Source: Planctomycetota bacterium (GTDB lineage: Bacteria > Planctomycetota > UBA11346). From it: a stretch of 64,000 nt of DNA. Numbering within the stretch: the first letter of the stretch is position 1; the number at the start of each line of letters is the position of its first letter. Below, piece by piece: positions 11,375 to 28,901 of the stretch. A program made the translations under genes and the position numbers. Below the pieces are notes generated by a model that saw nothing but the letters and a program-made list of their open reading frames with translations, made no database searches and was not told the origin of the DNA. The stretch covers positions 160,322 to 224,321 of the forward strand of contig JACDEI010000002.1 in the NCBI GenBank assembly GCA_013816485.1, in the 5' to 3' direction.

Positions 11375-11496
11375 GGGCGCGCATGATCGAAGGGCTGCCC
11401 CCCTGACAAGGGTCGACCCTCGCTGTCCAGCTGTGTGGCAGCTGCCGTCCTGCTACTGGCCCCTTGCGGTGCCCGTTCTATAACGCCGAGGTGTCC

Positions 11497-14400
11497 ATGC
11501 GCCGCCTGATGCCCCTGGCTGCCTCTTTGCTCGCCATCGCCCTCGCCCAGGGCGTCGAGCCGGTGGTCGCCACGCCGTTCGACATCCGTCACGACGCCAG
11601 CGAACTGCTCGACGATCTCAAGTCCCGTCGCGGCGAACCTGGAGCCTTGCTGGAGCGGGTGCAAAACCTCGTGGCCCGGCACGGCGATCGCATGATCACC
11701 GATGGCGAGCTGTGCGCTCCGCTCGCCGAACTGTTTGCCATCCGCCTCGCCGATATGGGCTTGGCCGAGACCTTCGCCCGCACCTACGACGGCACCGCGG
11801 AACGTCGTCTGCGTGATGCCATCCGTGCCCGGGCGAACGAGGCCGATCTGCGCACCCTGGCGCTGTCGTATCCCGGCACCGCGGCCGCTAAGCAGGCGTG
11901 GCGGCACCTGGCCGATCAGGCGTGGGACTCGGGTCGCCTCGGCCAGTACCTCGACTACGCCCGTCGGGCGGGCGAAAGCGGCGACAAGCAGCGCAGTCAG
12001 CGTGTCACCGCCGCCAGCACGCTGCTGACGCCCGATCACACCGTCGACCTGCCAGAATCGCTCGATGGCCTGGAAGAAATGTGGCGTATCGAACTGAGCG
12101 ATGCCATCGATGCCGCGGCATCGCCAGCCGTGCCGGCGCCCGACCGGCGTCTGCGGCGCATGCGGCGACAGATCAACACGCCGGCGCGATTCATCCTCGC
12201 CTCCGCTCCTGGGGAACTGACTGCGGCCAGCGACGGGCAGAAGATCTTCCTCTACGATCACCTGATCGGTCGACTGGTCGGCGAGGTCCGCACGCTCGGC
12301 AACGTCCCGCTCGGACAGTCCAAGGCGCGTCCTGCGGTCACCCGCAATGGCTTCATCGGAATGGGCTGGGTCGAGGACCATGCCGTGCTGATGTCGCTCG
12401 ATCAGCTCGGCGAGGTGAAGTGGCGTTGGAACTCGCCGTCGCTCGGACCGATCGAAGCGCTGTCGGCACCGGTAGTACTCGACAACTTGGTGGTGTTCTC
12501 GGCCCTGGTGCTGGGCAACCAGGAAGGTGCGGAGCTGCGCGCACTGGCCTTCCGCGTCGATACCGGACGTCCGGTATGGAACACCCTGATCGCCCGCATC
12601 CCGCTGCCGCGGCAGCAGATGATCTTCGCCAGCAACGACGTCGGCCTGTCCTCGCCTACGCTGGCAGTGCACGGCGGCTCGCTGGTGGTGTTGTCCAACA
12701 ACGGGCTGATCGCACGCCTCGGTATCGATGGCAACGTCAACCGCCTGTGGACCTACCCGAGCATCGGTGACGAGTTCGACAACGGCTTTGGGGGCACGAC
12801 CGTGCCGACGCGTCAGGGCGCCCTCGCCAGCGACGGCACCTTCCTGGTCGCCAGTCCGAGCGACAGTCCTGGGACGATTTTCTACCTGGGGCCGAACGAC
12901 CACGCGCCGCGCCGTTTCCAGGGCGATGGCGCGAATGGCGAGGTGCTCGATGTGGTCGGTGGCCTCGCGCTGCTGGCCGGACCACGCAACCTCGCGTTGT
13001 TCGACATCGCTGGTGGCAAGGTCCGCTGGGCCATCCCCTTCGCCGGGCGTGACGGCGTGCAGGGACGCATCGGCAAGGATCGCGTGCTGCTGAGCACCAA
13101 CGAGCAGCTCGCTCTGATCGACAGCACCAGCGGACGGGTGACCGGATCGCGCGGCCTGGCCAAGGGCATCTCGTTGGCCATCACCGCCGACCTGGTGATG
13201 GCGGCGAACAATCAGCACGTGATCGGCTGGGGTCGTGGCGCTTCGTTTCTCGAACGGCTGACCAAGGCCGCGGCGGCGGATCCCACAGACTTCAGGCCGT
13301 GGGGCACGCTGGCGTCTTTTCATGAGTCACGTGATGACCGCGAAAAGGCCTTCGCCTGCTTGATCGAAGCGCTCACCCGCGGCGCACCGGTGGAATACGC
13401 CGAACGTGCGGCGCGTCTGGTGCGCGGACAACTCGAACTCGGCGTCGGCGATGACAAGGCCTTCGTCGCGCCGTTGGCCAAGCTCCAGTCGTTGACCATG
13501 CATGACGACCGCCTGAAGGGCGAGATCGCCTTGTGGCGCGGTCGCCACGCCGAACTGCGCGGCGATGCCGCGGGCGCGATCTCGTCCTTCAAGACCGCCA
13601 CGACCTTCCCTGATCACCGCATGCTGCTGAAGGATCGTCTGGAGGCGCGCGTGCATGTCTTGGCGCGCAATGGTCTGGTGCGTCTGAAGGCTACGCCGGA
13701 AATCTCGCTGCCGCCGGTCAGCCGACGCCCGCTGCCGAAAGCCAACAGCGCGTGGAACATCCCTGGCCGACGTGGTGACACCATGCTGGTGGCGGGCGAG
13801 GTCGCGGTCGGTTTCAGCGATGGTTTCCTCAGCGCGACCAAGGTTGCCGACGGCACCATGCTCTGGCGTCGCCAACCGGTGCGGCAGTTGCTCGGCGTGC
13901 GCACCACGCTCAATCCCAACCTCGACAACACCGAGGGCATCCCCATCCAGGAGGTTGTCCCTGGGTCGAGCGCGGACGGTGCCGGCATGCGCAACGGCGA
14001 CGTGCTGCTGACCTTCCAGGGCCGCAAGACCACCAATTTCGATCGTGATCTGCGCGCGGTGGTGGCGACCATGGTGCCACGCACGCCGTTCACCATGACC
14101 GTGTTGCGGGGCGGCGCCGAGATCGAACTGAAGGGCCTGCTCGGTGGCGAGCCGGTCGAACCACTGGCAGCCAACGACAAAACGCTGCTGCTGTGGCTCA
14201 CCACGCCGCTGGGTGCCGCTGTGCAGCCGGGCCGTCAGCAGAGCGTACCGGAAGGCATGTGGTTCGCCGCGGTCGACCTCGCCACCGGCACCGAACTGTT
14301 CCGTTATGCGCTGCGCCCGACCAATGAGACCGGCGAACCCCCGCCGCAACCGCTGCTCACTGCCAACGATCTGGTGCTGACGCAGGACGGCAGCGACCTC

Positions 14401-15645
14401 GTGTGCCTGCAAGCGCACGGTGGCAAGGCCGGCGAAGCGCCCGCGCCATTGTGGCGCATGCCGCTGGGCGAGGAGGGCATGGACCGCGTGCGCGTGTTGT
14501 CGCCCGAGTTGCTGTGGCTGCCCGAAGAAGGACGCAAACGCGTACACCTGATCGATCTGCTGACCGGCACCACCCGCTTCGTGCTGCCCGAAGATCTGGC
14601 GGCGGATCCCATCCTGATCGGCAACACCTGTTTCTGCCTGGGGCGCGAGGGACGCATCACCTGCTGGGATCTCGGTATCGGTCGCCAGCGCTGGCGCTCG
14701 ACCAAGGTCTATGGCCGGCTACACGCGATGAGTGGTGATGGTCTCTACGCCACCGATGAGAACAACCAGTTGGTGGTGCTCGACGCCTTCAGTGGCGAGG
14801 TGCGCCGTCGTTTCGGTGAATGGGCCGCGATCGAATCCGTCAGCGCTGGCAGCGATGTGCTGTCGGTGTTCGTCCGTCGCGCCGATCGCTCGCAGGCCCT
14901 GGCCCGCATCAGTCTCGCCGGTGGCAACGTACAGTGGGAGCAGGTGCTGCCACACGGGGTCGAGGTCAGTAAACTGATCGACGCACCCGAGGCCTTCGGC
15001 GCCCAGCTCTTCGAAGGCGGCGATCGTCGTGCGGTGACCGTGATGATGGTCGGCAAGGACGGCGCCATCCGTTCAGCCCAGTCGTTGTCCGTGGAGGAGA
15101 AGGTCGTGCCGATTGACGGCGGGCTGTTGGCCTACGGCCCTGCCGGATTGCGCGTGTTGCCCAACGTCCTGCCAACGCCACCGCCGGCGATCGCCTGCAC
15201 CGAAGTGCAGGCCGATGGCGACCTCACCGCGGTGGCGCAGGCGGCCCTGCCCAAGGCCAATTGGCAGATGGTCGGCAGCGCGTCCTATGCAGTGGCCCGT
15301 CATCGCGGCGGCCTCCTGCTGTTCGCCCGCCTCGGTGCCGATTCCAAACCGCTCAGCCTGCGCCTGGGTGATGGCGAGCAGGCGATCGATGGCGCCGGGC
15401 TGATGGCGATCTTCTCCGTCACCAGTCCGCAATTCATCGGTACCGGGTCGTGGGTGGTCGATGGTGCCAAGCGCCTCTCTGCCGAGGGCGAACAACCGTT
15501 GTTGGTGCTGCGCCTGCAAGCGGCACCGGACCGTGTGCCCGGGACGGCCTTGTCGCTGCGCGCCGACTGCGGTGACACCACTGACGCCGCCAATGCACCG
15601 TGGTGGCTGCGCCGGGCCTGGCGGCCGGTGACGGGCGGGCCGTGA
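11497..15645 (+). CDS. Giant exported PQQ-like beta-propeller protein with internal TPR-like segment and PDZ domain
   Basis: A 1382-residue protein with a Sec signal peptide (MRRLMPLAASLLAIALAQG). Repeated strands of the BamB/PQQ type (for example EWRWNSPS-like, GKVRWAIPFAGRDG, CWDLGIGRQRWRS) occur in two blocks, roughly residues 240-590 and 890-1380. Between them is a helical, TPR-like stretch (about 595-740) and a PDZ domain (about 810-885, with GIPIQEVVPGSSADGAGMRNGDVLLTF). The organisation propeller-TPR-PDZ-propeller suggests a periplasmic scaffold. I use the ATG at 11497 because it gives a clean signal peptide; an ATG at 11464 would spoil it. A TATAAC at 11479-11484 could be a -10 element. 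The stop overlaps the acpS GTG. Confidence 0.75.
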   Translation: MRRLMPLAASLLAIALAQGVEPVVATPFDIRHDASELLDDLKSRRGEPGALLERVQNLVARHGDRMITDGELCAPLAELFAIRLADMGLAETFARTYDGTAERRLRDAIRARANEADLRTLALSYPGTAAAKQAWRHLADQAWDSGRLGQYLDYARRAGESGDKQRSQRVTAASTLLTPDHTVDLPESLDGLEEMWRIELSDAIDAAASPAVPAPDRRLRRMRRQINTPARFILASAPGELTAASDGQKIFLYDHLIGRLVGEVRTLGNVPLGQSKARPAVTRNGFIGMGWVEDHAVLMSLDQLGEVKWRWNSPSLGPIEALSAPVVLDNLVVFSALVLGNQEGAELRALAFRVDTGRPVWNTLIARIPLPRQQMIFASNDVGLSSPTLAVHGGSLVVLSNNGLIARLGIDGNVNRLWTYPSIGDEFDNGFGGTTVPTRQGALASDGTFLVASPSDSPGTIFYLGPNDHAPRRFQGDGANGEVLDVVGGLALLAGPRNLALFDIAGGKVRWAIPFAGRDGVQGRIGKDRVLLSTNEQLALIDSTSGRVTGSRGLAKGISLAITADLVMAANNQHVIGWGRGASFLERLTKAAAADPTDFRPWGTLASFHESRDDREKAFACLIEALTRGAPVEYAERAARLVRGQLELGVGDDKAFVAPLAKLQSLTMHDDRLKGEIALWRGRHAELRGDAAGAISSFKTATTFPDHRMLLKDRLEARVHVLARNGLVRLKATPEISLPPVSRRPLPKANSAWNIPGRRGDTMLVAGEVAVGFSDGFLSATKVADGTMLWRRQPVRQLLGVRTTLNPNLDNTEGIPIQEVVPGSSADGAGMRNGDVLLTFQGRKTTNFDRDLRAVVATMVPRTPFTMTVLRGGAEIELKGLLGGEPVEPLAANDKTLLLWLTTPLGAAVQPGRQQSVPEGMWFAAVDLATGTELFRYALRPTNETGEPPPQPLLTANDLVLTQDGSDLVCLQAHGGKAGEAPAPLWRMPLGEEGMDRVRVLSPELLWLPEEGRKRVHLIDLLTGTTRFVLPEDLAADPILIGNTCFCLGREGRITCWDLGIGRQRWRSTKVYGRLHAMSGDGLYATDENNQLVVLDAFSGEVRRRFGEWAAIESVSAGSDVLSVFVRRADRSQALARISLAGGNVQWEQVLPHGVEVSKLIDAPEAFGAQLFEGGDRRAVTVMMVGKDGAIRSAQSLSVEEKVVPIDGGLLAYGPAGLRVLPNVLPTPPPAIACTEVQADGDLTAVAQAALPKANWQMVGSASYAVARHRGGLLLFARLGADSKPLSLRLGDGEQAIDGAGLMAIFSVTSPQFIGTGSWVVDGAKRLSAEGEQPLLVLRLQAAPDRVPGTALSLRADCGDTTDAANAPWWLRRAWRPVTGGP

Positions 15646-20400: not shown

Positions 20401-23400
20401 TCAGGGCTCGTAGAAACGGACCATGCCATCCTGGGTGCAGACCGCCAATTGCTGGCCAACGATCGCGGGAGCTAGGAATTCGCTGCCGCCTGGGACGACG
20501 AAACCTTTCGGTCCGACCACCAACAACTGTTTGCCGATCGGCAACACTGCATGCCCGGACCACACCAGCGGCACCGCGGTCGGACGACCATCGAAACGGC
20601 CGACATCCTGCCACGACGCATCGCTCAGGATCCACGCGTGATTGTCCGGGGTGATCAGCACGCCCTTGCCGGCGGAACGGATCTCCTGCGGCAGGGGCGC
20701 ACGGGTTGGCGGATTCTCTCCCTGGCACACCCAATGGCTGATACGGGTGACGCAGTGCACGCCATCGGCGGCCTTCCAGGCACTCAGGACCTCTCCGTCC
20801 AGCCTGTGACGGGTCACCAGTTTACCATCATCTGGCAGATGAATGTCGATCGAACCATCGACGCGGACCGCCAGCACACGGTCATCATGCAGGATCGGGC
20901 CGTGGACGAAGGTTGCCCCCGGCTGGCCGTGCCAAGCGGCCAACGGCGTGCGGTCATCACTGGCATGCAACGCACCGTCGATGCCTGCGAGGATGATGAA
21001 CCGGCGACCGACGATCAGTTCACTCGCATAATCGACGAGCGGCAGGTCTGTGCGCCCGGCGATCGCCAGGCGTTCGATGCCGTTCTTGCCGACCCGGATG
21101 GCGATGGCCTCGCGCGTCGGATACCAGACGCCATCGGTTGTACCCAGAGCGCCGGCATACAGGGGTTGGCCGATTACATCACCGGTGCCGGGATTCTCGA
21201 AAGCGAAACGCTGGACCGGCTGACCGGGCGCGATGGAGGCCGCCCCCTGACGGCTCGCAATCCACAAACGGTCATTGATGGCTGTGGGGCGTGCGGTGAC
21301 GGTCATCTTCAGATCGAAGCGACCGGTGGCGGTGCGTTCGAGACCTACGGGGAGGAACCAGCCACCTTCCGCGGCGCTGCCCTGCACCTCGACCACATCG
21401 AAGCCCGCCCGCTGCACCCGCAGGGTCACAGCAGCACGCTCGCCTGCCGGCATATCAAGGATGAGCGGCGTGGTGCCGATCGATTTGCCATCGCGCAGCA
21501 CATCCGCTCCACTGGGCTGGCTGTGCACCACCAACGGCAGGTAACGCAGCCCCATCTTCTGGGCGATCGCCAGGCTGGTCGTGGTGTCGCCAGCCAGCAT
21601 CGCCTTGCGCAGTTCCTCCTGCCATGCCTGCTGCTGGCCACGGATTGATGCGATCGAGTCGAGATCCTGTTGCGCCAGGGTGCGCGCCGACGTGCGTTGC
21701 CATTGCGGACGGGCGAGTAATTCCTTCAACATGCGTTCGTTGGCTTCCCAGTCATTCTGGCGGGCAAAGCCCCTGGCGGTTTCAAGCGCCAGGGTCGCCG
21801 CCGATTCTATCCCACGCAGACGTGCGCTGCGACCAGCCACCAGGGTCGCGATGTTCGCCGGCGGTTGACGCTCCAGGATCCACGCATCGAGCGCCGTGGC
21901 TTCATCGCCCGCCTTGCGTTCACTCCCCAGACCGCTGAGTTCGTTGAGCAGTTGCGCCAACGAACGCAGGCTCTCGGCATTGGACGCTTGCGGCCATTTG
22001 CCCGTGGCCTGTTGCACCCGGGTGGCGAACGAGCCCATCACCTTGACGTCATCGCTGTCCTGGATGAGCGACAGCCCCTCGGCTTCCAGGGCGCGCATCT
22101 CCTTGGCGATCTGATCGTTCAGGCGTTTGAGCTCATCTCCTTCGCCAGCCAGCGGAGTGCCGCGCAACTGATCGCCGAGACGTGACTGTTCCCAGGCGGC
22201 TTCGACCTCGACGAAGGCGCCCTGCTCGGCCTGCTTGCGCAAAGTCTTGACCTGTTCCGAGGTGCGTTGTTGCAAGCGGGCGAAATCGCCGCGGATGCGC
22301 TCGATCTGCTCGCGTTGCCGGGCATCGGGGTCGGTGGCCAGGATCTGATTGACTAGGGCGGTGCGCTGGCTGAGTGCCAACGACGATGAACCTGCGCGTT
22401 CCAGGCTCGACAGACGCCAGCGCGCCAGGTAGTCGCTCGCCGTCTCGCTTTCACGCCCCTTCGCCGTCGAGATCAGATGCATGGCCTGCGCCGCCTGACC
22501 ACCCTCCAAGGCGGCTGTCACCTGGGCCAGCAAGCGGTCCGAGCGCGCCTTGAAGGTGTTCTGTCCGCTTTGCAGTGCGGTGCGCAAGTCGAGTGGCTGG
22601 GCAGACAACGGCAGGTTGTTCAGCCGTTCCTGGGCCGTGGGATAATTCTGTTCTTCCACCAGTTTGGTGATGGCGGCGGTTTCGGTCGCCAGGGCTTCGT
22701 TGAGTTGCTGGCGCAGCGCCTTCACCCGATCAAGCGCTTGCAGATCGTTGCCCGCTTCGGCTTCGGCCGTCTCGACTTGCGTCATCGCTTCATCCCAGCG
22801 ACCGGCCGTCATGCTGTCGATCAGCGCCTGCGACGTACTGTCGAGCGCAACGCTACGCCGTTGGGCCATGATCGTCAGGTAGCCGATCGCGCACACCAAA
22901 AGGAGCGCGGCGACCAGCATCACGCGCAACGCCGAGTTGCTGCCCGCGGGCTGCTGCTGGGCACGGTGCGGCACGAAATCGGCGAGCGGTTCGACCGCGG
23001 TGATTTGCCCTACGCTTGGTGGAGCCGGTGCTTCCTGCGTCGGCTGGACCGCGGTGCGCAAACGCGAGACCCCGCCGGCCGCTGCGGTGCGGCGCACCAC
23101 GCCCTTGGCGGCCATGCCGTAGAGCAGGCGCGACATGTTGAGCGTGCTCTCGCGGAAGGCGATGGCGATCTCTTCGACGGTTTTGCGTCCGTCGGTGAAA
23201 TTGAGGACATGTTTTTCGAAGTCGGACAAGACCACGGAACCGGACTCGTTCTCGGACAACGTGAACACTGAATCGGGGCCCCCGACCTCGTTCATCACCT
23301 TGTCGATCTCGGCGACCCGGGACTGCACGGTGTTGAGCAGCACGGAGGTGCCGATGCGCAAGCGGATGGCGCTGTTGTCGAAGTCGAACGTGCTGGCGTC

Positions 23401-23778
23401 GTCCTGTTCGTCGAACACCATTTCTTGATGGGTGGTGCTGAAGCACTTTACCAGGGTGTCCTCGACCATCGAGCGGGTGACCTGCGCCACCTCTTCATCG
23501 CTCACCACCTGCTGACGACGGAGGAGGTCCGCGACTGACCCTTTGCCGAGTCGCCGCGACTCGACCACCATCTGATACATTTCCTGGCCGAGCTTATGGA
23601 AATCGAGCAGCGCCTGGGCCAGCACCAGATCCTTGTCGGCGCAGAAATCGAGACCGACCGGATCACCTTCCTCAAGACAAAAGCGCAGCCGGTAACTAGG
23701 TCCGACGACCGTCAGCACGCCGGATTTCTTCTGCCGGTTGATGCTCGCGAACTGTTCGATCAGGATCGAATTCAGCAT
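20401..23778 (-). CDS. PATAN (DUF4388)-type membrane protein with coiled coil, PEGA domain and C-terminal beta-propeller
   Basis: A 1125-residue protein. The cytoplasmic N-terminus (about 1-250) resembles PATAN/DUF4388 domains, found in regulators of gliding and signalling proteins (KKSGVLTVVG, GDPVGLDF, VADLLRRQQVVSDEEV). One membrane helix lies at about 283-305 (LRVMLVAALLLVCAIGYLTIM). A long, charged helical region (about 310-740) follows. A PEGA domain is near 749-815 (VHSQPSGADVLRDGKSIGTTPL). Strand-rich repeats to the end look like a PQQ-type propeller. Sensing outside and signalling inside is a plausible reading but is inference. It is downstream of, and co-directional with, a paralogue-like 1354-residue protein, 58 nt apart; AGGGA precedes the ATG. 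Confidence 0.72.
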   Translation of the reverse strand: MLNSILIEQFASINRQKKSGVLTVVGPSYRLRFCLEEGDPVGLDFCADKDLVLAQALLDFHKLGQEMYQMVVESRRLGKGSVADLLRRQQVVSDEEVAQVTRSMVEDTLVKCFSTTHQEMVFDEQDDASTFDFDNSAIRLRIGTSVLLNTVQSRVAEIDKVMNEVGGPDSVFTLSENESGSVVLSDFEKHVLNFTDGRKTVEEIAIAFRESTLNMSRLLYGMAAKGVVRRTAAAGGVSRLRTAVQPTQEAPAPPSVGQITAVEPLADFVPHRAQQQPAGSNSALRVMLVAALLLVCAIGYLTIMAQRRSVALDSTSQALIDSMTAGRWDEAMTQVETAEAEAGNDLQALDRVKALRQQLNEALATETAAITKLVEEQNYPTAQERLNNLPLSAQPLDLRTALQSGQNTFKARSDRLLAQVTAALEGGQAAQAMHLISTAKGRESETASDYLARWRLSSLERAGSSSLALSQRTALVNQILATDPDARQREQIERIRGDFARLQQRTSEQVKTLRKQAEQGAFVEVEAAWEQSRLGDQLRGTPLAGEGDELKRLNDQIAKEMRALEAEGLSLIQDSDDVKVMGSFATRVQQATGKWPQASNAESLRSLAQLLNELSGLGSERKAGDEATALDAWILERQPPANIATLVAGRSARLRGIESAATLALETARGFARQNDWEANERMLKELLARPQWQRTSARTLAQQDLDSIASIRGQQQAWQEELRKAMLAGDTTTSLAIAQKMGLRYLPLVVHSQPSGADVLRDGKSIGTTPLILDMPAGERAAVTLRVQRAGFDVVEVQGSAAEGGWFLPVGLERTATGRFDLKMTVTARPTAINDRLWIASRQGAASIAPGQPVQRFAFENPGTGDVIGQPLYAGALGTTDGVWYPTREAIAIRVGKNGIERLAIAGRTDLPLVDYASELIVGRRFIILAGIDGALHASDDRTPLAAWHGQPGATFVHGPILHDDRVLAVRVDGSIDIHLPDDGKLVTRHRLDGEVLSAWKAADGVHCVTRISHWVCQGENPPTRAPLPQEIRSAGKGVLITPDNHAWILSDASWQDVGRFDGRPTAVPLVWSGHAVLPIGKQLLVVGPKGFVVPGGSEFLAPAIVGQQLAVCTQDGMVRFYEP

Positions 23779-23836
23779 GGTGATCCCTGGTGTCTGATGT
23801 GTCGTCCGACGCGTAGTCTGATGAAACGTGCGTTCA

Positions 23837-26800
23837 TCACGGAGAATACGTTGCGAGCGTACCGTCGCTCATACCGACCACAACCATGTCGCCGGAACAC
23901 GCGACCGCCGAAGGGGCGGTCGGACAACTGGTCATCCACAACAATACTCCATGCCGGTAGACCAGGACCAGCCCTGAACGCACGCCGACGGCGACGAGGT
24001 CACCACCAGCGGCCGCCGGCGTGATGGCGGCCGCCGGCAGCGCCAAGGTCGAAGCCACCCCGTCCTGTGACAGACGCATCAGGGCGTTGCCGGCAGCGAC
24101 CCAGATGACATTGGCCGCGGTCACCGCCGGTTCGCCCACGGCCGGTCCGGGCAGGGCGGTGTTCCACCGCAGGGTCGCACCGGTGGCCGAGATGCCCCAC
24201 GACGCCACCCGGCTGCCATCGAGGATGCCGACTGCCGCATCGTTCCCGAGGTGCATGAGCTGACCGATTTCGGTGGCCTTGAGATCGAATTGCCACAGGC
24301 GTTGCTTGGACGATTCCTCGAAGGCGAGCAGTTGGCCCTGGATGGTTGCAACCACCAGCAGACGGTCCGGTCCTTTGGCAAAGCTGAGTGGACCCGCCAG
24401 CGCCGGGCTGGGCAACGGTACACGTGTCATCTCTGAACCCAAGTCGCCGATGTACAGCGCTTCGGCGGCATAGGCCAACCGCTGTTGACCACCCAGCAGA
24501 TCGTTGCTGTGGATCAACGGTTTGCCGCGCACTAGGTCGGTCGACGCCATGCGCGCTTCGATGGTCCCCTTGGGCGAGATCAGGGCCACGTCCTTGTTCG
24601 GCAGGCCCAGCACCAGGGAACCTTCGGGCTGGACGAGCGGCAGGTGGTTGAGGCGGAACCGTTCCAGGTCGGAGAGATCATCGACTGTGGCGATGCTGGT
24701 GCGCCATTGCGGCTTGCCGTCCGCCGACAGGCGGTGCAGCACTTCGCCCGACAACGCCAGCACGCCACCGTCGGGCAGCGCCATCACGGTATTGATCGGC
24801 TTGCCGAGATTGACCTGCCAACGCGTGGCTCGCGCCATCGCGGCCTGCCAACGCCATTCGCCTGCGATCTCGCCGACTTTGCGGATGGTGGGCTGCCAGC
24901 CGTCCATGGTCACGCGGACCTCGTGGGTGGTCTGTTCAGGACGGAAGCCGATGACGCAGGGAGTGGTTCCGACCACCACCTGGTTGACCAGCACCTGGGC
25001 TCCGGGCGGTGTGGTTTCGATGCGGATCGGTAACTTCAGTTCCGCAGGGAGTTGACCGCCACCGGCAAACAGGTTGCGGGCCAAGCGCCATGCCTGTTCG
25101 GTCTGCTCGGCCTGCATCGCCGTACGCCAGAGCCCCATCTGCTCTTCGCGTGAACGCTGGGCCTGCGCGACAAGATCGAGACGCGCCTTCGCTTGGTTCG
25201 CCTGGGGCGCCGACGGATGCGTGGCGATGAAGGCGTTTAAGGCCTCCACGGTCGGATTGGTGCCCAGTTGCTGGTAGGCTGCGGCAGCCAGCTGGATGCG
25301 TTTGGCGATGTCGCCACGGGCGGCGGTCAGGTCGCTGGTCCGTCCCCAGGCTTTTGCGGCCCCCTCCAACGCCAGGAGTTCTGCATTGGCCTTGCCGAGG
25401 TCCTGGCCCGCCTTCGCCTGCGCGGTGCCCAATGCGGCGACGAATTGCTGCTCCTGCGGTTCGAGCCGGGCAACGCCTTCCTTCGCCAGCGGTGAAACGG
25501 TCTCATGACCGATGGTGGCGAGCTGGCGATATCCGGCGAGCGCTCCCGCGAGATTGCCCGCCTTTTCCAGGCCTTGGAGCTCATCCATCCGTTCCGGTGC
25601 CTGTATCCGCTGCTGGGCGACATCGCTCTGCCGACGGCGGGCTTCGGTGACTGCATCCTCCGCCGACTTCAGGCGCATGCCGACCGAATCGTGGAACTCG
25701 GGCTTGCGCAGTTGTTGCAGCAGTTGGTCGGCCCGCACGACGTCGCCGTTACCGGCCGAGGCACTGATCTCCTTAAGTGCAGTCTGCGCGAGGTTGATCC
25801 GGACCGTGACCAGGCGGCCATCGAACTCGTTGAGTGCGATCTGCGCTTCCAGGGCGGTATTGGTCCCCCCCATGCGCTTGACCTGTTCTCCGAGTTTGTC
25901 CGATTCTTGAGCCACCTGGCTCAGCGCGGTGAAGGTCGCTTGGTTCGTTCCTGGCGGAACACTGTCCAACAGCCGGGACGCGGTTGCCAGATCGCTGCGG
26001 AAGGAATGCAGGAGCAGGTACGGACGGGCCACCAGCCAGCCGAACACGCCGATGGCGATGAAGGCGGTGGCGTAGATCACCATGATGCGCTGATGGTGTT
26101 TCTTGGTCGACGCCAGGATCTCCTGCAGGCGTGGGATGCGCGGATCGCCTTCGCGGATGACGCGGATCGCTGCGCGGTAGGATTGCATCGCGGCGTAGAA
26201 ACGGCGCACACGGCGCAGTTGATGACCGCGATCGATCAGGCGCTCGGCCGCATCATCGCTGACCCGGCTTTCGAGTTCGCGGATGTGGGTCTGGAGCTCC
26301 TTGTTGTCGGAATTGAGCTTGGCGATTTCACGCCATTCGCTCAGCGCCCCGGAATAGTTGCTCGATTCCTCCAGCGCACGGGCGTTCTTGACCGACGATT
26401 CCAGTTTGTTGGCCCAGAACTCGGACCCCTTGCCGTCCTTGGTCGCGGCTTGCTTGGCCCCCTTGCTAACGATGCGGGTGGTGGTCGGGCTGGCGAGCAT
26501 CTTGCGCTTGTGGCCAGCGACGTGCGGGTTGGCACCGCAAAAGATGCACAGGCGGTCGGACACCGCGATCGTGCGGTTGCACGATTGGCAGGACAGACGC
26601 AGCGGTGCTTCGCATTCGGTGCAGACCTTGGCCTCACGATGGTTCACGTGACCGCACTGGACGCAGATGACGACGTCCTCGTTGTCCTTGTCGCGTTCCG
26701 CGCTGGCGAAGATGCGCGCCATCTCGCGGCGTACGTCCTCGTTTTTGGGGTCGAGTTCGAGGATCTTCAGGCAGGTGCCGCGGGCGTCCTCCAGGCGACC

Positions 26801-27901
26801 GAGTTCGAGGAACTGCGCCACCACTGCGCGCAATTCGGCGACCGCCTCGGCATTCTTGCCGGAATCGAGCAGGCAGCGCACCAGGATCAGGCGCAGATTG
26901 GGATCGCGCTTGTCGAGGCGCACTGCCCGGTGGGCCGATAACAACGCATCATCCGGCGCACCCTTGTCCAGGTAACTCAACGCCAGTTGGCTGTGGCAAT
27001 TGGCCGCTTCCGGGGCCTCGTCGAGCAGTTCCAGGCAGTCGGCGAGTTTTGCCGTGGTCGTCTGGTCGTCCGCATTCTCGACCAGCGCCCGGCGGTAGAG
27101 TTGCGCCGCCTTGATGTATTCCCGCTGCGAGAACTGGTGATCCGCATGCGACAAAATGTCGACGCGGGTAAGCACCGCGACCATGTTGTTTTTCAGTAGT
27201 TCCGCCAAGACGCCGTAGACATCCAGGCGGGTCGCCACCGAGCTCTTGATGATGTCCTCAATCGTGCGCACCGCATCGATGAGCGGTACCACGGCAGCGC
27301 CAGGATATTCCTTGCTGGCGGCGAGCAGATCCTGCTCGCGTCCCTCCGCCTGTCCCAGAACCGTATCTTCCGAGGTGATGACCTTACGTAGGTTGTTCCA
27401 TTCGTCGATGCGGCGAGCGGCCTCCATCAGCATGGAATTGATGTTGATCTGCAGCGGGCGGGTCCGGCACTGCTCTACCTGACGCTGGGTGACCGCATCC
27501 TCGGGCGTGGCATCCTGGAAAACGAAGTCGGCGAAATCCCAGGTGCAAATGTTGTAGAGTTCGTCTTCTGCTTGGCGGTGGAGCGCATCAAGCACCTCGC
27601 TCTCGGAGATCTTGCCGCTCTGGAGGAGCCCTTCGAGCACGACCGCACTATCCTGCGTCGACGAACTGATCGCCGCGGCGGTCTCGGCGTTGAGGCGTCC
27701 CTCCAGGATCAAGCGACGCAGCAGGCCGAGTTTCTCCTCGCCCGCCCGAAAGCCGACACCGATGACCTCACCGTTGGCGAACACCACATCACGACCCGAA
27801 TCCGCTGCGGCTAAGCGCAGGACCCCGTTAGCGCGGATGCGATTAATCGTCTGGAACACCTCGACCAGGGACAATGTATTGAGGTTGCCGGCGAAACCCA
27901 T
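23837..27901 (-). CDS. PATAN (DUF4388)-type membrane protein with TPRs, double zinc ribbon, PEGA domain and propeller
   Basis: A 1354-residue protein with the same plan as its neighbour but more parts. The N-terminal DUF4388 domain (about 1-190) begins GNLNTLSLVEVFQTINRIRANGVLRL, the typical form. TPR-like helices lie at about 255-400. A double zinc ribbon lies at about 413-455, with four CxxC pairs (CVQC, CTEC, CQSC, CIFC). A second helical block leads to one membrane helix near 605-630. An extracytoplasmic coiled-coil region runs to about 950. A PEGA domain is near 957-1002 (IRIETTPPGAQVLVNQVVVGTTP), and a propeller ends the protein. Likely co-transcribed with the 1125-residue gene. Function unknown; membrane-spanning signalling is inferred from domain order. 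Confidence 0.74.
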   Translation of the reverse strand: MGFAGNLNTLSLVEVFQTINRIRANGVLRLAAADSGRDVVFANGEVIGVGFRAGEEKLGLLRRLILEGRLNAETAAAISSSTQDSAVVLEGLLQSGKISESEVLDALHRQAEDELYNICTWDFADFVFQDATPEDAVTQRQVEQCRTRPLQININSMLMEAARRIDEWNNLRKVITSEDTVLGQAEGREQDLLAASKEYPGAAVVPLIDAVRTIEDIIKSSVATRLDVYGVLAELLKNNMVAVLTRVDILSHADHQFSQREYIKAAQLYRRALVENADDQTTTAKLADCLELLDEAPEAANCHSQLALSYLDKGAPDDALLSAHRAVRLDKRDPNLRLILVRCLLDSGKNAEAVAELRAVVAQFLELGRLEDARGTCLKILELDPKNEDVRREMARIFASAERDKDNEDVVICVQCGHVNHREAKVCTECEAPLRLSCQSCNRTIAVSDRLCIFCGANPHVAGHKRKMLASPTTTRIVSKGAKQAATKDGKGSEFWANKLESSVKNARALEESSNYSGALSEWREIAKLNSDNKELQTHIRELESRVSDDAAERLIDRGHQLRRVRRFYAAMQSYRAAIRVIREGDPRIPRLQEILASTKKHHQRIMVIYATAFIAIGVFGWLVARPYLLLHSFRSDLATASRLLDSVPPGTNQATFTALSQVAQESDKLGEQVKRMGGTNTALEAQIALNEFDGRLVTVRINLAQTALKEISASAGNGDVVRADQLLQQLRKPEFHDSVGMRLKSAEDAVTEARRRQSDVAQQRIQAPERMDELQGLEKAGNLAGALAGYRQLATIGHETVSPLAKEGVARLEPQEQQFVAALGTAQAKAGQDLGKANAELLALEGAAKAWGRTSDLTAARGDIAKRIQLAAAAYQQLGTNPTVEALNAFIATHPSAPQANQAKARLDLVAQAQRSREEQMGLWRTAMQAEQTEQAWRLARNLFAGGGQLPAELKLPIRIETTPPGAQVLVNQVVVGTTPCVIGFRPEQTTHEVRVTMDGWQPTIRKVGEIAGEWRWQAAMARATRWQVNLGKPINTVMALPDGGVLALSGEVLHRLSADGKPQWRTSIATVDDLSDLERFRLNHLPLVQPEGSLVLGLPNKDVALISPKGTIEARMASTDLVRGKPLIHSNDLLGGQQRLAYAAEALYIGDLGSEMTRVPLPSPALAGPLSFAKGPDRLLVVATIQGQLLAFEESSKQRLWQFDLKATEIGQLMHLGNDAAVGILDGSRVASWGISATGATLRWNTALPGPAVGEPAVTAANVIWVAAGNALMRLSQDGVASTLALPAAAITPAAAGGDLVAVGVRSGLVLVYRHGVLLWMTSCPTAPSAVACSGDMVVVGMSDGTLATYSP

Positions 27902-28019: not shown

Positions 28020-28901
28020 ATGCCCACGTCGGTCGCGCTCTGGTGTCCCGCCTATCCCCTGCCGCCAGCCCGTCAGTCGGCGGCGCTCGCGGCGGCGACC
28101 GCATTTGTGCACGGAATCGCCGGTGAACTGACAGTTTCAGCCGGCAATTCCCCGTGGTTGGGTGACGGTGCCTGGGCTCCCGCCCCGCAACGGCGGAGCG
28201 CTTTCCGCCACGTGCTCGGCCACGATCTCCTGCTCGCCGGTCGGGGCGGTTATGGCTGTCTGGACCTGCTGGATGAGGTCGCCGGTCATAGCGGCCCCCT
28301 GCCTGGGCTGATTGGATACTCGGACCTCACCGTGCTGCACGCCGCCTGGGCGGTGCGCGGCGGCCCCGAGACCCTTTACGGGTTCATGCCCGGCGTCGCG
28401 CATGGTGACCGCGCACTGGCCTCGGCCATCGCCTTGGCCTTGGGTAAGGAACAACACTGGGACAACACTGTGTTGCCGGAAGCCCGCGTGCTGCGTCAGG
28501 GTGAAGCACGGGGGCCGTTGTTCGCCGGATGCCTGCGGGTGCTGGCGGGCCTGATCGGAACGAAGTGGATGCCTGACCTGCGGGGTCGCATCCTGGCAAT
28601 CGAGGACATCGACGAGCGACCCTACCGCATCGATCGCGATCTCCAGCAGCTCCACCTGGCTGGCTGTCTCGCTGGCGTGCTCGCCGTGGTCGCCAATGCC
28701 TTCCCGGCCACGCTGCCGGAGGGTTATCGCGGACCGTCGGGTGCGGACATTGTTAGCGCCTGGGCGGAGCGGTTGGCGGTTCCAGCGATCATGGACCTGC
28801 CGTTCGGCCACCATGCGGATCCGCTGACCTTGGCCTGCGGTCGTGCGACGACGCTGCGCGCTGGTCAAAACACCTGGAGCCTGGAGCAGGCTGTTCGCTG
28901 A
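28020..28901 (+). CDS. LD-carboxypeptidase, family S66
   Basis: A 293-residue serine peptidase of the LdcA/MccF type, which cleaves between L- and D-amino acids, usually in recycled murein peptides. RGGYG and the nucleophile Ser in GYSDLTVLHAA (near residue 100), the Glu in AIEDIDERPYRIDR (near 198) and His in PFGHHADPLTLACG (near 262) form the Ser-Glu-His triad. No signal peptide is visible, so it is probably cytoplasmic. It is divergent from the 1354-residue gene, sharing a 118-nt intergenic region. Its stop codon lies within the first copy of a 14-nt tandem repeat, convergent with rbsK. Confidence 0.87.
   Translation: MPTSVALWCPAYPLPPARQSAALAAATAFVHGIAGELTVSAGNSPWLGDGAWAPAPQRRSAFRHVLGHDLLLAGRGGYGCLDLLDEVAGHSGPLPGLIGYSDLTVLHAAWAVRGGPETLYGFMPGVAHGDRALASAIALALGKEQHWDNTVLPEARVLRQGEARGPLFAGCLRVLAGLIGTKWMPDLRGRILAIEDIDERPYRIDRDLQQLHLAGCLAGVLAVVANAFPATLPEGYRGPSGADIVSAWAERLAVPAIMDLPFGHHADPLTLACGRATTLRAGQNTWSLEQAVR

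Follow-up and report, generated by a model that had tools for sequence, protein, structure and literature searches.

Polarity control by the small GTPase MglA and its partner MglB is understood mainly in Myxococcus and Thermus. Genes for PATAN (DUF4388) proteins occur near mglA and mglB, according to a survey of prokaryotic Ras-like GTPases that makes no mention of Planctomycetes (PMC4316618). PATAN response regulators of Synechocystis bind the pilus ATPase PilB (PilB1; PMC10519157), and the output of PATAN regulators is directed toward this ATPase, with a link to chemotaxis-like systems (PMC10519157, PMC7690835). Here we describe two genes, A and B, from a 64,000-nucleotide stretch of a planctomycete genome (contig JACDEI010000002.1, positions 160,322 to 224,321; hereafter the window), which encode giant proteins combining PATAN with a membrane helix, a PEGA domain and a beta-propeller. 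From their homology and co-occurrence with GTPase and roadblock genes we propose, at roughly even odds, that both are trans-envelope adaptor or effector proteins of an MglA-type small-GTPase polarity module.

A and B are arranged head to tail on the minus strand; no terminator-like site was found in the 58-bp gap between them. Their features are as follows.

23837..27901, minus strand: gene A, an open reading frame (ORF) of 1354 amino acids (aa), in the order PATAN, winged helix, TPR, double zinc ribbon, TPR, transmembrane (TM) helix, helical stalk, PEGA, propeller
27395..27892, minus strand: A, PATAN/DUF4388, residues 4-169 (Pfam PF14332, 71.5 bits, cut-off 25)
27122..27376, minus strand: A, winged-helix-like module, residues about 176-260 (strand-helices-strand order in AlphaFold2 (AF2); match to the B module 91.8%)
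26699..27166, minus strand: A, TPR array, residues 246-401 (Pfam TPR families; Foldseek TPR matches)
26534..26665, minus strand: A, double zinc ribbon, residues 413-456 (Pfam DZR, 30.7 bits)
26159..26425, minus strand: A, second TPR-like helical block, residues 493-581 (AF2; conserved profile block A_TPR2)
26030..26086, minus strand: A, membrane helix, residues about 606-624 (hydropathy 1.9-2.9 in 14/14 orthologues)
25067..26008, minus strand: A, putative helical stalk, residues 632-945 (homologous to the B helical array, hhalign 92.5%)
24875..25027, minus strand: A, PEGA, residues 959-1009 (Pfam PF08308, 29.5 bits, cut-off 20.8)
23840..24844, minus strand: A, PQQ/BamB-type propeller, residues 1020-1354 (Pfam PQQ_2, 50.2 bits)
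20401..23778, minus strand: gene B, an ORF of 1125 aa, in the order PATAN, winged helix, linker, TM helix, helical array, PEGA, propeller
23284..23769, minus strand: B, PATAN/DUF4388, residues 4-165 (Pfam, 27.2 bits, cut-off 25; hhalign to A PATAN 96.6%; AF2)
23086..23268, minus strand: B, winged-helix-like module, residues 171-231, or about 166-235 when drawn more widely (AF2 element order; hhalign to A)
22867..22923, minus strand: B, membrane helix, residues about 286-304 (hydropathy 2.1-3.5 in 16 orthologues)
21553..22797, minus strand: B, helical array, with antiparallel helices in place of one coiled coil, residues 328-742 (AF2 secondary structure)
21400..21534, minus strand: B, PEGA, residues 749-793 (Pfam PF08308, 21.6 bits, cut-off 20.8; AF2)
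20410..21357, minus strand: B, BamB-like beta-propeller, residues 808-1123 (AF2, Foldseek)

The two ORFs coincide exactly with the adjacent proteins of 1354 and 1125 residues reported in a preliminary description of this DNA, which had assigned PATAN, PEGA, a propeller and one membrane helix to each, and TPRs with a double zinc ribbon to one. This composition was recovered throughout: by Pfam for A (all matches over cut-off) and by Pfam and AF2 for B, with a single helix in all aligned orthologues of both, and with TPRs and zinc ribbon in A only (Pfam, AF2 and invariant cysteines). The long coiled coil of that description had to be abandoned, as the AF2 model of B consists here of alternating long and short antiparallel helices; by homology to this modelled region, the stalk of A would be a similar helical array. 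A winged-helix-like module, absent from the earlier account, follows PATAN in both proteins. The full-length model of B (16 sequences) has a mean pLDDT of 85.6 and a disordered linker ahead of the membrane helix, and the model of A residues 1-632 (mean pLDDT 82) shows PATAN with its winged-helix-like module, a pair of helical-repeat blocks and the region of the zinc ribbon; the order of elements within PATAN is the same in both. The B propeller is under Pfam detection, yet clear in the AF2 model, where Foldseek matched it to the designed Cake8 (4.5e-13) and to BamB (3q54, 6.4e-12), with E about 1e-11 and a TM-score to the target of about 0.6-0.67 for BamB structures. With A residues 1-632, the best Foldseek matches were to TPR proteins only, and phmmer searches of the PDB with A and B gave no significant match. 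A profile of several PATAN giants did give a match in the PDB, in which the helical insertion corresponds to N-terminal domains of the type IV pilus ATPases PilF/PilB (E 1.2e-12, PilF 6f8l), hinting at a shared origin. Judged by their domain content, A and B are likely trans-membrane proteins with a cytoplasmic PATAN head; the charges flanking their TM helices are only weakly biased.

We then considered conservation, bearing in mind that all genomes compared are drafts and several are 60-80% complete. Among 23 genomes of the host class, A is present in 20, B in 21 and both in 20. The two genes are adjacent on one strand in 14 of the 19 genomes assessable in a neighbourhood count, and separated in the other five (G001, G006, G007, G008 and G009). 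Orthologues that keep the full architecture number 14 for A and 16 for B, with identities of 23-49%, and the eight cysteines of the A zinc ribbon (C413, 416, 427, 430, 438, 441, 452 and 455) are invariant throughout the 14; such conservation across diverged sequences argues that the architecture did not arise by chance. Structure prediction and conservation of the pair, two of the checks suggested in the preliminary description and the ones by which it could have been refuted, both returned what it had expected. In one genome (G018), a single ORF of 2597 aa covers both A and B, with a spacer of about 20 translated residues between them; we gave this case little weight, since besides a true fusion it could reflect a lost stop or an assembly error. 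Full-length A is confined to the host class in a sample of 392 genomes of the phylum, and when 99 genomes were searched with a single B sequence, no full-length match came from beyond the class; the titles of matching public records are nearly all uncultured Planctomycetota.

The possibility of a stand-alone pair was rejected, since A and B are paralogues of a third protein, C, encoded in the same genome (L061:7949-11566, 1205 aa), and of giants found phylum-wide. With the A profile, PATAN-TPR proteins 800-1300 aa long were recovered from many further planctomycete families; most of 20 loci from such families have PATAN with a TM helix, and in those scanned with Pfam a PQQ-type propeller and several PEGA domains are also present. 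The zinc-ribbon profile matches A alone. In a tree of the PATAN region, A, B and C form three supported groups, with two more host-class PATAN proteins (X_L075 and X_L076) falling inside the A group. A and B are therefore class-specific members of an architecture that is phylum-wide.

It is through C and these wider relatives that the giants are tied to a GTPase module. The C operon runs in the order TPR-roadblock, roadblock, MglA-like GTPase, MglB-like roadblock and C, is kept in the host class, and encodes a GTPase with TVPGQ, the motif given for group 1 MglA (PMC4316618). A TM helix is predicted in the C-terminal half of this GTPase (L061:6013-7437 and L175:8546-10072). In the known cases MglA is, to our knowledge, soluble. 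A GTPase and/or MglB gene adjoins the PATAN giant in 10 of the 20 loci from other planctomycete families. To follow codistribution, we called PATAN giants at a profile E <= 1e-12 and roadblock proteins by PF03259: among 369 genomes outside the host class, 127 encode both, 12 giants only, 25 roadblock only and 205 neither, and by family (99 families) the corresponding numbers are 54, 2, 1 and 42. Concordant contrasts of presence and absence are seen within families f1 (genus g10), f8, f32 (with one exception, G112) and f66. In the host class, roadblock matches occur in 18 of the 21 genomes bearing PATAN giants, and genus g10 (G016 and G017), where A, B and C are undetectable, has no detectable roadblock genes either, while it retains the GTPase.

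Downstream of C (L061:11629-19296) lie two genes with pilin-like N-terminal methylation motifs, followed by an ORF of 1886 aa that has no Pfam match and has relatives in three other genomes. The GTPase of L061 carries a Pro/Ala-rich tail after its membrane helix, and a membrane helix also ends the GTPases of L139, L138 and L145. An MglA-like GTPase domain (TVPGQ), a zinc ribbon and a Ser/Thr kinase domain are combined in one ORF of 1459 aa (L182:4207-8586, own genome, contig C27), and a similar long ORF with this GTPase domain occurs in several host-class genomes. The genome of the window also encodes a PATAN protein of 878 aa that has many TPRs but lacks a membrane helix (L062:8181-10817, contig C13) and a short protein with an apparent FHA-like N-terminus, seen by eye, and DUF4388 (L063:2717-3430, contig C26). 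Within the window, positions 11464-15645 encode a protein of 1393 aa that combines a PDZ domain with PQQ propeller repeats and has a relative in the A neighbourhood of G001.

A second link is to chemotaxis genes. In six genomes of three genera (G003, G009, G019, G020, G021 and G022), cheA-cheW lie 3' of B; in G003, cheB and cheR also follow B, ahead of putA, the gene that directly follows B in the window. An apparent lack of Hpt in the CheA of G003 proved to be a frame-break artefact, with Hpt encoded in the preceding frame. The genome of the window (87% complete) gave no match to methyl-accepting chemotaxis proteins (MCPs) and only a weak match to CheA, and keeps A and B. The chemosensory link is thus real but not obligate, and we rejected the idea that A and B are obligate chemotaxis receptors. 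Both this kinase operon beside B and the tie to MglA-like GTPase and roadblock proteins are stronger leads than those followed in the preliminary description, which missed them; they suggest polarity wiring of a GTPase/chemosensory type, for which the envelope would be the target or the anchor.

Because PATAN elsewhere signals to machines, lies near mglA and mglB, and has an insertion resembling PilF/PilB N-terminal domains, an adaptor role for A and B can be pictured as follows. The cytoplasmic head (PATAN and winged helix; in A also TPRs and zinc ribbon) would read the state of the MglA-like GTPase and its roadblock partners, and in some relatives also CheA/CheW output, and would dock on a pilus- or secretion-type machine. 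The single membrane helix would pass the signal to the helical stalk, on which PEGA and the BamB-like propeller would sit in the periplasm, next to peptidoglycan or to a partner in the outer membrane, so that the periplasmic part could either anchor to the envelope or report on it. The physical contacts in this scheme, the N-in orientation, the direction of signalling and the machine served are what we infer.

A number of observations weigh against this proposal. No GTPase or roadblock match was found in the neighbourhoods of A and B themselves; since these genes never lie beside them, the membership of A and B in the module is deduced from homology and co-occurrence. The co-occurrence of giants and roadblock proteins is not fully corrected for phylogeny, which its Fisher p-values disregard, so that these are no literal measure of significance. 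Three giant-bearing host-class genomes (G004, G013 and G020, 68-72% complete) gave no roadblock match. The joint absence in genus g10 counts as a single loss and is seen in drafts. The chemosensory branch is dispensable, as the genome of the window keeps A and B with no MCPs detected. Finally, what the giants act for may be another system that simply accompanies the GTPase module.

The preliminary description had read A and B as trans-membrane sensors of the cell wall. Its trans-membrane layout stands as the likely topology; its wall sensing has only partial support, from PEGA and the following gene, whose membership in the locus is uncertain.

28020..28901, plus strand: LD-carboxypeptidase (Peptidase_S66, peptidoglycan recycling; Pfam), divergent from A

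As sensors of the wall or envelope state, the proteins would bind peptidoglycan or muropeptides through PEGA and propeller and relay this through PATAN, with the GTPase distant in the network. We regard this as unlikely. In its favour, both A and B have PEGA, 10 genomes show the LD-carboxypeptidase gene in divergent orientation to A (the sole recurrent neighbour favouring the cell wall), and genus g3 has a Mur ligase gene upstream of B; however, transcription of LdcA leads away from A, no LdcA gene was found next to A in G019-G022, wall binding by PEGA is not established, and it is roadblock genes that PATAN giants track across the phylum. An explanation we hold to be similarly doubtful, and which overlaps the adaptor proposal, has A and B serve a type IV pilus or a secretion (pseudopilus) machine as scaffold or regulatory components, with the ATPase of that machine, and not a GTPase, as their target. 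The binding of PATAN regulators to PilB1 in Synechocystis, the PATAN profile match to PilF/PilB and the pilin-like N_methyl genes after C and near A are consistent with it, but the GTPase/roadblock link is stronger, and the pilin-like adjacency is weak evidence, because DUF1559-type pilin-like genes are very common in Planctomycetota. It is highly improbable that A and B stand in for MCP receptors, or add to them, in signalling to the neighbouring CheA-CheW: in spite of the cheA-cheW genes after B in six genomes, neither protein has an MCPsignal or HAMP domain (Pfam), G003 has 12 MCP matches of its own, and both giants persist in the window's genome, with its weak CheA match and no MCP match. 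A role in anti-phage defence was rejected, with no PADLOC match.

Returning to the GTPase module, the domains of A and B are all known ones, and the occurrence of PATAN close to MglA was reported earlier. The statement of the preliminary description that no characterised system has this composition held up, in that no paper with both PATAN and PEGA was found in the open-licence literature; there, a search combining MglA, roadblock and Planctomycetes also returned nothing. The literature searched likewise gave no mention of a TM-bearing MglA combined with roadblock proteins and giant PATAN-PEGA-propeller proteins, of their near one-to-one co-occurrence at the family level in Planctomycetota, or of the zinc-ribbon A/B pair. 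We tentatively suggest, at somewhat less than even probability, that Planctomycetota possess a hitherto undescribed envelope-spanning polarity system made of a membrane-anchored group-1-like MglA, roadblock regulators and giant single-pass PATAN-(TPR)-TM-PEGA-propeller effectors, with A and B as a class-specific pair able to take chemosensory input. If so, planctomycetes would have a candidate for a Ras-like polarity system that itself makes contact with the envelope, and PATAN would appear as a general link between GTPase or Che signalling and envelope machines.

Among described systems, the Myxococcus MglA/MglB system with its TPR effector SgmX and Frz input (PMC7519303, PMC3441718) resembles the planctomycete one in its group-1-like MglA, roadblock partners, TPR proteins and chemosensory wiring. 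The planctomycete GTPase differs in having its own predicted TM helix, its putative effectors are giant single-pass PEGA and propeller proteins, and no motility role is known for the system. The cyanobacterial PATAN-REC regulators PixG, PixE, PilG and TaxP2 (PMC10519157, PMC7690835) are alike in PATAN and in their chemotaxis-like link, but are soluble and carry REC, with no TM helix, PEGA or propeller, whereas Pfam found no REC domain in A or B. BamB has the same propeller fold and is a stand-alone outer-membrane lipoprotein, unlike A and B, in which the propeller is the C-terminal part of a longer protein, behind a TM helix and cytoplasmic domains. PEGA-domain surface proteins share PEGA with A and B, each of which holds a single PEGA domain within a multidomain protein of signalling type.

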